Position numbers and translations under genes: made by a program
Shown: positions 2-59,327 of the stretch, piece after piece
How the letters are laid out: the number at the start of each line of letters is the position of its first letter
Position numbering within the stretch: position 1 is the stretch's first letter
Notes under the pieces: generated by a model
Told to the model about the DNA's origin: nothing
Database searches by the model: none
The model's input: the letters and a program-made list of their open reading frames with translations, nothing else
Assembly (NCBI RefSeq): GCF_036429475.1
Contig: NZ_CP144125.1
Span: forward strand, 1,240,001-1,304,000
DNA: 64,000 nucleotides
Direction: 5' to 3'
Source: Halalkalicoccus sp. CGA53
Lineage (GTDB): Archaea; Halobacteriota; Halobacteria; Halobacteriales; Halalkalicoccaceae

Positions 2-319
2 GAGACGTTCGAAAAGGCGACAGTCGAAGGAGCGGAGCTAGACGGCGTGACGTTCTACCGGATTACCGTCGATCCGGGATGGGTGTGGTCCGACCACTAC
101 GGATCCGTGATCGGAGCAGAGAGCTGTCCGGAGCGACACCGTCTGTTCATGCTCTCCGGGGAGATGACGGTCGAGATGGACGACGGCACCCGGGAAACGC
201 TTCGAGAGGGCGACGTCTCGGTGATAGCGCCGGGACACGACGCGTGGACGGAGGGAGACGAGCGAGCCGTGTTCCTCGATATCGACCCGGGACGAGGCGG
301 ACACGATGAGCAGCGATAA
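2..319 (+). CDS. Cupin-domain protein, 5' end outside the window
   Basis: The reading frame is open from the first complete codon at base 2, so the true start is probably upstream. A GTG at 47 is the first start codon inside the window. The visible part looks like a single small cupin barrel: a VWSDHY segment, then CPERHRLFMLSGEMTVEMDDG, then the second-motif-like GDVSVIAPGHDAWTEGDE. These match the two conserved cupin motifs loosely; there is no full set of metal-binding histidines, so a catalytic role is uncertain. It overlaps the following hydrolase gene by 14 bases, which suggests one transcript. Substrate unknown. Confidence 0.7.
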   Translation, partial: ETFEKATVEGAELDGVTFYRITVDPGWVWSDHYGSVIGAESCPERHRLFMLSGEMTVEMDDGTRETLREGDVSVIAPGHDAWTEGDERAVFLDIDPGRGGHDEQR

Positions 320-1640
320 ACGGAGGACCGAGGACCGGAGCGGCTCCGTCGTTTCGCCGGACGGCACCGAGATAGTGTACTGGACCAGCGGCACGGGACC
401 GCCGCTCGTCCTCGCCCACGGCAGCGGGGTGAGCGATCACCGACGATGGGAGATCGCCGGGGTTCGCCCCGCGCTGGCGGAACACGTGACAGTGTACGCC
501 CTCGACCGCCGTGGTCGGGGCGAGAGCGGCGATAGCCCCGAGTACTCGCTGGAGAAGGAGGTAGCGGACGTAGTGGGCGTCGTCGAGGCGGTCGGCGAAC
601 CGGTCGCGTTGCTCGGCCACTCCTACGGGGCGACTATCGCACTCGAGGCGTCCCTTCTGACCGACGGTATCGCCAGACTCGTGCTCTACGAACCGGGGAT
701 CGCCGTCGGCGATCACGAGCTCGCCCCTCCGGAGGTCGTCGCCGAACTGAACGACCTCCTGGAGGAGGGGGAGAACGAGGAGGCGCTCCTGCTCTTCTGC
801 CGGGTGATCGCGGGTCTCACGCCGGAGGAGATCGACGTCTTCCGATCGGACCCGAGCTGGCGGGACCGGGTCGATGGTGCGCACACCCTGCCCCGGGAGG
901 AACAGGCGATAGCGGACCTCGAACTCCGGCCCGCCCGGTTCGCGGGGATGACCACACCGACCCTCCTGTTGTCCGGCGGGGAGAGCCCCCGGGCGTACCA
1001 GGATGCGACGGCCGTGGTGCACGGAGCGCTCGCGAACAGTCGGATCGTCACCTTCGAGGGCCATCACCACGTGGCGATGCAGACCGCCCCGGAGCGGTTC
1101 GTCGAGGAGGTACTCGCGTTCGTCCGCGAGACGAGCGGACACCACACGGAGGGGAAATCCACGACGACGGAGACGTACGACACCGAATCGGAGGCCGACC
1201 CGAAACGGGTCGTCGATCGCTGGTTCGCCGAGTTCTGGGGCGAGTTGAACCCCGATATCGTCGACGAACTCGCCGCGGAGGATATCCTGTTTCACTACAC
1301 GCTCGTCGGCGAGGTCCGTGGGCGCGAAGCGGTGAAAGCGCGCATCGTCGGGTTCGCGGAGCTCTTTCCGGACGGGGGCTTCGAACTGACTCACGAACCG
1401 ATCGCCGAGGGCGAGTGGGTCGTCGCCCGCTGGGAGGGTGGGGGCACGCACACCGGCCCCGCGTGGGAGCTGTCGGTCGGCACCCTCCCGGCGAACTCCG
1501 GCAGGACGGCTCACTACACCGGTACGACGGTCTACCGCGTCCGCGACGGTACCATCGCCGAGGAGCACGGACAGGCGGACTACATCGCGGCGATGCAACA
1601 GCTCGGTCTCGTCCCGGGAGGCGACGAGGCGACGGACTGA
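306..1640 (+). CDS. Alpha/beta hydrolase fused to a C-terminal SnoaL-like domain
   Basis: 444 residues. Residues about 15-275 are an alpha/beta hydrolase: oxyanion-side HGSG, DRRGRGESGD strand, nucleophile elbow GHSYG, and a C-terminal His in GHHHVAMQ. Residues about 300-435 form an NTF2-like domain of the SnoaL/ester-cyclase type (VVDRWFAEFW near its start, YTGTTVYRVRDGTIAEE near its end). The hydrolase half resembles the stand-alone hydrolase at 38609-39400, including DRRGRGESGD, LGHSYGA, LVLYEP and APERFV-EVLAFVRE, so the two are paralogues. The fusion could couple a hydrolase to a small-molecule-binding domain; substrate unknown. The start overlaps the cupin gene. The TGA stop is the first trinucleotide of the inverted-repeat element at 1638-1740. 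Confidence 0.85.
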   Translation: MSSDKRRTEDRSGSVVSPDGTEIVYWTSGTGPPLVLAHGSGVSDHRRWEIAGVRPALAEHVTVYALDRRGRGESGDSPEYSLEKEVADVVGVVEAVGEPVALLGHSYGATIALEASLLTDGIARLVLYEPGIAVGDHELAPPEVVAELNDLLEEGENEEALLLFCRVIAGLTPEEIDVFRSDPSWRDRVDGAHTLPREEQAIADLELRPARFAGMTTPTLLLSGGESPRAYQDATAVVHGALANSRIVTFEGHHHVAMQTAPERFVEEVLAFVRETSGHHTEGKSTTTETYDTESEADPKRVVDRWFAEFWGELNPDIVDELAAEDILFHYTLVGEVRGREAVKARIVGFAELFPDGGFELTHEPIAEGEWVVARWEGGGTHTGPAWELSVGTLPANSGRTAHYTGTTVYRVRDGTIAEEHGQADYIAAMQQLGLVPGGDEATD

Positions 1641-1740
1641 GAGGGATCATCGTAGGAGTTCGTACTTCCTCGATTCGAATCGAACGACACCGATGAGACG
1701 TGTGCCCGAGAGGTCCGGGTGGCTACGACGATCCCTCTGA
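1638..1740. repeat. MITE-like inverted-repeat element, copy 1, at a stop codon
   Basis: A 97-bp unit lies between TGA (1638-1640) and TGA (1738-1740). Its ends are inverted repeats: GAGGGATCATCGTAG on the left, CTACGACGATCCCTC on the right, 14 of 15 positions pairing. The left TGA is the stop codon of the upstream hydrolase. The core aligns by eye over most of its length with the copy at 59224-59327 and more weakly with 43097-43193. No ORF of its own. I infer a non-autonomous transposable element with a 3-bp target duplication; a structured 3' UTR element is the alternative. Confidence 0.75.
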
Positions 1741-25660: not shown

Positions 25661-26128
25661 ATGACCGACGAACCGTTCGAGGAGGTCCCGAGGCTGCGCC
25701 GGATCGCAGACTACCAGTTCGGCACCGGCGCGGGCGAGGCGCTCTTCTCCGGCGAGCTCTCGGTGACGCGCTCGTCGAGCGGTCGGCCCGTCCAGGTGAT
25801 CGCGCCCGAGGGCCGACTGGTCACCTTCGGCCAGGACGGCCGGTTCACACTCGGGATCGCCGGCGGTGAACGGCTTCGGAGCGCGCTCTCGCACCCGAGG
25901 TACAGGGTAGTCGTGAACGAGGAGTCCGAGCCGTTCGTCCGCGACGGGAAGAACGCCTTCTCGAAGTTCGTCCTCGAAACCGACCCGGAGATCCGCGGCG
26001 GCGACGAGGTGCTCGTGGTGAACGACTCCGACAGCTTGCTCGCGGTCGGGCGAGCCGAACTCGATTCGAGGGCGATCGCAGACTTCGAGACCGGGATGGC
26101 CGTGAAGGTGCGCGAGGGCGCCGACTGA
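25661..26128 (+). CDS. PUA-domain RNA-binding protein
   Basis: 155 residues. The C-terminal ~75 residues (from FVRDGKNAFSKFVLETDPEIRGGDEVLVVNDSDSLLAVGRAEL) form a PUA domain as in archaeal tRNA-guanine transglycosylases and pseudouridine synthases; the first half resembles the short C2-type lead-in seen in ArcTGT relatives (RRIADYQFGTGAGEALF). No catalytic domain is present. It precedes the NAC gene and the tRNA methyltransferase, so a tRNA- or translation-linked role is likely (inference). Promoter-like CGTTTTTCC lies about 27 bases before the ATG. Confidence 0.85.
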   Translation: MTDEPFEEVPRLRRIADYQFGTGAGEALFSGELSVTRSSSGRPVQVIAPEGRLVTFGQDGRFTLGIAGGERLRSALSHPRYRVVVNEESEPFVRDGKNAFSKFVLETDPEIRGGDEVLVVNDSDSLLAVGRAELDSRAIADFETGMAVKVREGAD

Positions 26129-43096: not shown

Positions 43097-43193
43097 TCAG
43101 AGGGGTCGTCGTAGGGGCTCACGCGTCCTCGATTCGGTTCGAGATGAGTTCACCGGATCACTTCCTCTCGGACGGCTACGACGATCCCTCTCA
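43097..43193. repeat. MITE-like inverted-repeat element, copy 2, at a stop codon
   Basis: A 91-bp unit between TCA (43097-43099) and TCA (43191-43193). Ends: GAGGGGTCGTCGTAG on the left and CTACGACGATCCCTC on the right, inverted repeats differing at one position. On the minus strand the right TCA is the TGA stop of the NUDIX gene. The core keeps CCTCGATTCG-type sequence shared with copy 1 but is otherwise more diverged. The left end is 13 bases from the ATG of the next co-directional gene, so the element sits inside what was probably one operon. Confidence 0.7.
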
Positions 43194-43616
43194 GTAGCCG
43201 TTCTCCTCCAGGAACCGGTGGGCGTCCTCTAGGATCTCCCGCGGGCCGTCCTGGGTGATCGTGTTGATCGCCTGCTCGTAGTCGCGCCACTGGAGGTCTC
43301 GGTGTTCGGTCGAGAGTTCGGCGGAGGCCTCGAACGACTTCGCGACGAACAGGTGGACCGTCTTGTGGATCGTCGTCCCGTTGGCCTGGAAGACGTAGTC
43401 GTAGTCGTCGCGGAAGCCATCTAGGAGTCTGAAGTCCTCGATCCCCGCTTCCTCCGTTACCTCTCGTATCGCCGTCTGCTGTAGCTCCTCGTCCCCCTCG
43501 ACGCCGCCTTTGGGGAACTCCCAGTCCCCGGGACGGCTCTTGAGGAGGAGGTACTCGCGCCGTCCGCGCGTATCCCGGAACAGGATCGCGCCGGCGCTGA
43601 CCGCCTCGACTGTCAT
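43191..43616 (-). CDS. NUDIX hydrolase, diadenosine-tetraphosphatase type
   Basis: 141 residues from the ATG at 43616; longer upstream readings run through the divergent promoter. The Nudix box is complete: GGVEGDEELQQTAIREVTEEAGI (about residues 37-59). The preceding SRPGDWEFPKG and the short length fit bis(5'-nucleosyl)-tetraphosphatase-like enzymes that clean up dinucleoside polyphosphates. A TATA-like CTCATTACG on this strand lies about 28 bases upstream. The stop codon coincides with one end of the inverted-repeat element, and the DUF5787 gene follows on the same strand. Confidence 0.87.
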   Translation of the reverse strand: MTVEAVSAGAILFRDTRGRREYLLLKSRPGDWEFPKGGVEGDEELQQTAIREVTEEAGIEDFRLLDGFRDDYDYVFQANGTTIHKTVHLFVAKSFEASAELSTEHRDLQWRDYEQAINTITQDGPREILEDAHRFLEENGY

Positions 43617-43771
43617 TACCCACAGGTAAACGATCACCCGTAATGAGGATATCGGACGATTGGAGGAGTGAGGCGTGCGGTTCGTTCGTACGGCACATCC
43701 CGGTCGCGGACGACTGAACGGTCCGCCCGAAGTTGCCAAAAGAGTTTACTGGCCCAACACGAACCTCCAGT

Positions 43772-58629: not shown

Positions 58630-59226
58630 GTGAACGGGGACGAGTACGATCACCCGCTGCTGGGCGTGAACAGAGGCTACACACTCGTCGGGTTCCTCTA
58701 CCTGATCCTGGGTGGGATCGTCGCGGTCGCCGATCCCGTACACACCTCCGGGGTTTCCTCCGCCGCAGAACTCCTCGTTCCCGCGTCGCTGGTCGTACCG
58801 TTCCTCTATGCGGTGAGCAACGGTGGCCCGCTTCTCGCGTTTCTGTTGAGTCAGCAGACGCTCGGGGCGATGTACCTTCTCGATCTGCTCACCGGGGGAG
58901 CGACCGTCGACCCGGTCGCCCCCCTGATCGCGCTGATGGTGGGTGCGGGAGCCGCCGGGGTGGCGGTCTACGCGACCGGCGTCCACCGTACCCGCCAGGT
59001 TCGCGTCCCCGTCTACGAGGGGTACCGGGCGAACCTCCTCTTCGCGTCCGTCTGTTACCTCGGAGCGGCTGTCGTTCTATGGACCACGTGGGACCACTGG
59101 CGCGTCCTGCGGGGAGCTATCCCCCTCTTCGAGGTCATCGACGGGATGTTCCTCGTCTCGGGGTGTCTCGTGATCGCGTACTGGCCGATCTGGATTCGGA
59201 CGCTGAATCCGGCGGGCTCGGTCTGA
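58630..59226 (+). CDS. Polytopic membrane protein, unknown function
   Basis: 198 residues, GTG start. About six hydrophobic segments: residues 15-35, 45-63, 66-87, 93-115, 130-150 and 165-188, with short loops and a basic patch between the fourth and fifth (HRTRQVRVPVYEGYR). No recognised motif. It lies between the two PAPS-reductase-like paralogues but on the opposite strand. Its TGA stop is the left flanking trinucleotide of the inverted-repeat element at 59224-59327. Confidence 0.68.
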   Translation: MNGDEYDHPLLGVNRGYTLVGFLYLILGGIVAVADPVHTSGVSSAAELLVPASLVVPFLYAVSNGGPLLAFLLSQQTLGAMYLLDLLTGGATVDPVAPLIALMVGAGAAGVAVYATGVHRTRQVRVPVYEGYRANLLFASVCYLGAAVVLWTTWDHWRVLRGAIPLFEVIDGMFLVSGCLVIAYWPIWIRTLNPAGSV

Positions 59227-59327
59227 TAGGGATCATCGTAGAAGTTCATACTTCTCCGATTTCGAACCGAGCGACATCGGTGACACGTGTACCCGAGAGA
59301 TTCAGTTGACTACGATGATCCCTATGA
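59224..59327. repeat. MITE-like inverted-repeat element, copy 3, at a stop codon
   Basis: A 98-bp unit between TGA (59224-59226) and TGA (59325-59327). Ends TAGGGATCATCGTAG and CTACGATGATCCCTA pair perfectly over 15 bases. The left TGA is the stop codon of the preceding membrane-protein gene. The core aligns well by eye with copy 1 (GTTC-TACTTC, CGAACGACA/CGAGCGACA, ACGTGT-CCCGAGAG). It carries no ORF. Confidence 0.75.

Follow-up and report, generated by a model that had tools for sequence, protein, structure and literature searches.

The window, a 64,000-nucleotide stretch of the Halalkalicoccus sp. CGA53 genome, carries three short units with inverted ends, each lying between two copies of the triplet TGA or of its complement TCA, and the proximal triplet is in all three cases the stop codon of a well-scoring open reading frame (Table 1). 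This arrangement raises the question of whether the units are mobile elements that insert into stop codons and regenerate them and, if so, to what extent the stop codon itself is preferred. All three units, with their inverted ends and matching flanks, are present at the positions given in the original prediction. The inverted arms of copy 1, including the duplicated triplets, extend over 19 nt and are 89% complementary. The host protein of copy 3 (198 aa) gave no match in a Pfam search.

Table 1. Coordinates of the three elements of the window, their flanking triplets and their host genes (TSD, target-site duplication).
Feature	Position	Strand	Description
Copy 1 element	1641..1737	+	97 bp, GAGGGATCATCGTAG...CTACGACGATCCCTC
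Copy 1 left terminal inverted repeat	1641..1655	+	from inverted-repeat search
Copy 1 right terminal inverted repeat	1723..1737	-	from inverted-repeat search
Copy 1 proximal TSD TGA	1638..1640	+	stop codon of gene 306-1640
Copy 1 distal TSD TGA	1738..1740	+	next base G
Copy 1 host gene	306..1640	+	444 aa, alpha/beta-hydrolase and SnoaL-like domain (Pfam)
Copy 2 element	43100..43190	+	91 bp, most diverged among the window copies
Copy 2 flanking TCA pair	43097-43099 and 43191-43193		43191-43193 is the host stop codon
Copy 2 host gene	43191..43637	-	148 aa, NUDIX protein, stop 43191-43193
Copy 3 element	59227..59324	+	98 bp, TAGGGATCATCGTAG...CTACGATGATCCCTA
Copy 3 flanking TGA pair	59224-59226 and 59325-59327		59224-59226 is the host stop codon
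Copy 3 host gene	58630..59226	+	198 aa, stop 59224-59226

The window units did not arise by chance, since the core of the terminal inverted repeat (TIR), AGGGATCRTCGTAG, has 93 matches in the genome when at most one mismatch is allowed, compared to a single one for the reversed control pattern, and a BLAST search of copy 1 against its own genome (G000; 4.04 Mb, two contigs) identified 40 places, nearly all near full length, down to E ~4e-7. With a sequence profile built from 38 copies we found ~60 copies of this family (family 1) in G000, 103 matches in G001, a genome of the same genus that is 61% complete, and 34 in G002, both G001 and G002 being fragmentary MAGs; many copies had been expected genome-wide, and this was confirmed both in the own genome and, with about 100, in a relative. 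Family 1 elements are nearly throughout 91-101 bp long and non-coding, with 15-bp TIRs; most of them start with TAG, they occur in both orientations, and their first ~28 bp and last ~26 bp are kept across the class, the middle being variable. An exact search for the 15-base TIR, allowing either pyrimidine, was positive in 32 of 391 Halobacteria genomes. The TIR was also found in named Natrialba, Natrarchaeobius, Salinadaptatus, Natronolimnohabitans and Haloferax records, as well as in 'Halococcaceae' MAGs, in which the element positions match those on the G001 and G002 contigs. A BLAST search against phages returned one 20-base match only, which was judged to be chance, and the viral contigs containing the 15-mer were not accepted as true carriers (a short pattern, a very large collection and one match per contig).

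Empty sites were probed for with the two flanks (75+75 bp) of each of 33 stop-codon copies, joined together. The site of window copy 2 is empty in G001, where it reads GGCCACCTCAGTAGCC (CTCAG), and the site at 1744418 is empty in G002, where it reads GGCTCAGTC (CTCAG). The plasmid copy C1:87695 corresponds to an empty site on a Haladaptatus salinisoli plasmid, GACGACTGAGCTC (CTGAG), which is the RefSeq-annotated stop of WP_227357113.1, the orthologous TetR/AcrR gene. Empty sites in relatives, predicted to read CTGAG, were therefore recovered, as CTCAG for window copy 2 and as CTGAG in Haladaptatus. At the sites of window copy 1 in G001 and of 2731309 in G002, the orthologous gene keeps its stop TGA in the corresponding position and carries no insert (CTGAC), and one G001 copy compared with G000 fits a clean 3-bp duplication (L169/L105). 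Of the generic traits of MITEs, small size, lack of coding capacity, TIRs, a flanking TSD and empty orthologous sites are present in the family, which consists of mobile non-autonomous elements.

The target of these insertions was reconstructed from the flanks. Among 32 G000 copies with equal flanking triplets, 31 have TGA/TGA or TCA/TCA, which represent one target on opposite strands. The elements of other genera were partly found by a TSA-containing pattern and are TSD-biased, so that our statement on the TSD uses only the set from a TIR-only search in other Halobacteria, in which the triplet was TSA in 20 of 22 matched pairs, the remaining two being GCT and AGT. A or T precedes CTSAG in 95% of the stop copies, compared to 47% of all TGA stops, and follows it in 42% of the stop copies and 89% of the non-stop copies, compared to 26%. 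The reconstructed target is roughly WCTSAGW, with duplication of the central TSA (3 bp), and insertion into CTGAG/CTCAG with a 3-bp duplication, as originally proposed, is borne out by both the TSD counts and the empty sites. The central base of the target is G or C, because the matched triplets are nearly always TSA although CTNAG sites with A or T at the centre are available (50 of 216 non-coding sites). The rule is not absolute, given the GCT and AGT triplets outside the genus and apparent CTAG sites in G009, which belongs to a neighbouring genus. Some T-variant copies in G009 (TAGGGATTATCGTAG; L181, L206) are flanked by CTA and TAG, which suggests that they inserted into CTAG and duplicated 2 bp (TA).

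To count stop-codon placements, genes were called with a codon-usage caller trained on G000 acidic ORFs, and RefSeq annotation was used only for the Haladaptatus record. The duplicated triplet is the exact stop of a called gene in 36 of 62 copies (58%) in G000 (64 were located; two others overlap called genes), and in at least two more copies (L011, L036) the decay of the triplet from TGA to CGA has moved the gene end by three bases, to the element's TAG. These counts support the claim that the proximal duplicate regenerates the stop codon and leaves the protein intact. As a null, we took the non-coding CTSAG sites outside elements in a 464-kb sample of G000; among these 159 sites there are 43 stop codons (27%) and 116 others, and the excess of stops among the copies is significant (P=2e-5). 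With the null limited to sites that are non-divergent and lie 100 bp or more from a start, the share of stops rises to 48% and the excess falls to P=0.03. In G001, stops carry 16 of 45 non-overlapping copies, no significant excess over the null (P=0.18), and in the sets from other Halobacteria the stop fraction, resting on the G000-trained gene caller, is equal to the null (24 of ~85, ~28%). Several copies lie between convergent genes, and copies adjoin ordinary genes. The identity of triplet and stop codon is therefore valid for all three window copies, not for the family as a whole, and a general stop-codon habit was overstated. The habit does exist but is special only in part: placement on stops is enriched about 2-fold in G000 and at background level in other genera, and the habit is mostly as target chemistry and the removal of harmful insertions predict, with a possible residual stop preference in G000 beyond target and selection.

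A second family, unrelated in sequence, is ~79 bp long (TACGGACTGCTGT...ACAGCAGTCCGTA) and shares its target with family 1. Its duplications are mostly TGA/TCA and 17 of its 27 copies are on stop codons; examples in G000 are L119:11205-11283, L122:801-879 and L137:10860-10938, and some are nearly palindromic. The stops at 1354043 and 2731309 carry family 1 in G000 and family 2 in G001, and the stop at 1000547 carries family 1 in G000 and another element in G002. Oppositely oriented family 1 copies were observed at the same stop at 687336 (vs G002) and at 25742 (vs G001). When 453 gene ends were scanned without regard to family, nine stop-TSD insertions were identified, all from these two families. 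L412 (G002:C331, ~296-380, reverse strand) has, at the stop codon orthologous to that of G000:C2:1000547, a short unit, TACTGATCG...GTTCAGTA, between TCG and TCA, possibly a third family.

Some further arrangements were observed around these elements. At L022 1500-1679 (G000:C2:2863008-2863186) a family 2 element is nested inside a family 1 element. An ORF of ~263 aa, resembling by eye a TauE/SafE-type exporter, lies between two inward-facing element copies on the chromosome (G000:C2:386918-388006, L004 513-1601) and, inverted, on the 280-kb contig (G000:C1:24357-25396, L114). The triplets of the right copy on C1 differ, with TGA inside and TCA outside, as expected if the gene was moved by the two elements together, as a composite. 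Downstream of G000:C2:1755313 (flank-probe query 2478-2539), the sequence ACCGGTGATCGCCAGTACGGG...GGACTACGACCGTCC is probably another dispersed repeat, since it matches many places in relatives.

The excess over the null, the stop placement of an unrelated family and the occupation of the same stops by different or reversed elements could all be explained by active targeting of gene 3′ ends, with a transposase or a host factor (e.g. linked to transcription termination) steering insertion to stops beyond base preference. We consider this unlikely. An active stop preference is unproven because only the P=0.03 excess is left in comparison with promoter-free sites, and elements with the same TIRs in other genera have a background stop fraction. 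Inversion between the TIRs could account for the two reversed cases. That certain stops are used more than once may point to a preference or just to a shortage of permitted sites, as CTGAG is found at only 43 of 457 stops, about a tenth of genes.

Still less probable is that copies at gene ends are positively retained, as an mRNA-stabilising 3′-end hairpin, a terminator or an insulation between convergent genes. The position of several copies between convergent genes would fit such a role, the TIRs form a 15-bp stem and the RNAs of the window copies fold more stably than shuffled sequences (z -1.7, -2.4, -4.4); however, the stem is accounted for by the TIRs themselves, outside of which we found no covariation and no conserved consensus fold (alifold consensus -1.74 kcal/mol), the element end has no T-run, copies are found in either orientation and many orthologous genes are without the element. 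As for a conserved 3′-UTR element or RNA that is inherited with its gene and is not mobile, the chance is negligible. Some sites are occupied in the same orientation in sister species (L175/L032), which such inheritance would produce, and some other sites are occupied there as well, in many cases by an element of another kind or in the opposite orientation. Against it stand the unrelated host genes, the TSDs, the class-wide dispersal and the precise empty orthologous sites, and it is by these empty sites that the reading is refuted: it would require distant species to share the sequence at a given stop, and this fails at several sites, where the orthologues have the stop but are insert-free. 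An RNA element was likewise rejected, as an Rfam search with the element gave no match and no consensus fold was found.

The preferred reading, that of non-autonomous mobile elements, raises the question of the transposase. The IS5/IS1031-type transposase domain DDE_Tnp_1_2 (PF13586) was found in none of 11 genomes searched and DDE_Tnp_4 (PF13359) in none of nine, and 27 DDE_Tnp_1 loci were without these TIRs and without any TSA-flanked inverted ends. TIR pairs at IS length were absent from the genomes covered by a limited search; the partner may be elsewhere or extinct. Unpaired TIRs in many Halobacteria were considered as IS ends and rejected, most of them having a degenerate partner ~98 bp away; the remaining ones had no matching far end, and no transposase was apparent in the ORFs of four loci. 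A literature search returned no paper on IS1031 in haloarchaea and none on CTNAG targets. The description as a MITE-like mobile element stands, and the assignment to IS1031 within the IS5 family is not supported at the gene level: neither a transposase gene nor an IS with these TIRs was found in the genomes searched, and the duplicated triplet is TSA, not TNA with just any central base.

The mechanism that we propose, and which we regard as highly probable, is that of a non-autonomous MITE family mobilised in trans, with a WCTSAGW target, TSA duplication and accumulation on stop codons by selection. A transposase supplied in trans would recognise the 15-bp TIRs and conserved subterminal sequence (~28 bp on the left, 26 bp on the right) and would cut the palindromic WCTSAGW with a 3-bp stagger, inserting the ~98-bp unit and thereby duplicating the central TSA, which is TGA on one strand. 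Where this TGA ends a reading frame, the stop would be restored by the duplicate on the proximal side and the protein left unchanged, and the element's initial TAG would give a second in-frame stop directly behind it (TGA-TAG). About a quarter of the non-coding CTSAG sites of G000 are stops, and insertions into coding sequences or promoters would be purged by selection, so copies would pile up on stop codons. We infer that the transposase acts in trans and is of the DDE type, and that selection is the main cause of the enrichment. More tentatively, and with considerable doubt, two or more unrelated kinds of miniature element (the 98-bp TAGGGAT... and the 79-bp TACGGACTGCTG...), forming a parentless set that spans the class, might depend on a single haloarchaeal transposition activity, the gene for which would belong to the host or be domesticated and would not be that of an IS. 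This activity would read WCTSAGW, and stops would thereby be the main safe sites, re-used at the same genes across species.

PIF/Harbinger transposons and their MITEs use the target CWCTTAGWG, of which TTA is duplicated. The present target is similar to theirs in its palindromic W-CTNAG-W form and in the duplication of the central triplet; those transposons, however, are eukaryotic and have T or A at the centre, whereas here it is G or C and no DDE_Tnp_4 homologue was found in the genomes searched. The IS1031 subgroup of the IS5 family produces a TNA direct repeat, e.g. TGA in ISLrh (PMC12016507), and shares with the present family a 3-bp TNA-type duplication, here nearly always of the TSA subset only. 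Unlike that subgroup, the present family has no IS1031-type transposase gene in the genomes searched, and the ISLrh TIR (GAACCTGTC...) differs from the TIR described here.

Among elements already described, the closest are the small mobile repeats (SMRs) of Haloquadratum walsbyi, SMR-A and SMR-B (PMC3119063), the mobilisation of which is called enigmatic by the authors. In the sections on them, SMRs are similarly non-coding, 80-110 bp long, with prominent inverted repeats and tens of copies, and no transposon with matching ends is given for them. They differ in that SMRs are reported there without target duplication and insert into PATEs/IS605 or other mobile elements, whereas the present family has a 3-bp TSA duplication and is located at gene ends. 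The H. walsbyi MITEs described in the same source resemble our elements in their TIRs, target duplication, a length too short to code and presumed mobilisation in trans, but they share ends with known haloarchaeal transposons, no such partner being found here, and the sections describing them do not mention placement on stop codons.

The elements described here represent a transposon strategy for a gene-dense genome, in which the duplicated core is a stop codon, the gene product stays intact and the TAG terminus of the element adds a second stop. The occurrence of two unrelated families with the same rule makes it testable whether stop placement is written in the transposase or is the residue of selection, and the TSA duplication and the WCTSAGW target narrow the search for the missing transposase of small haloarchaeal repeats.
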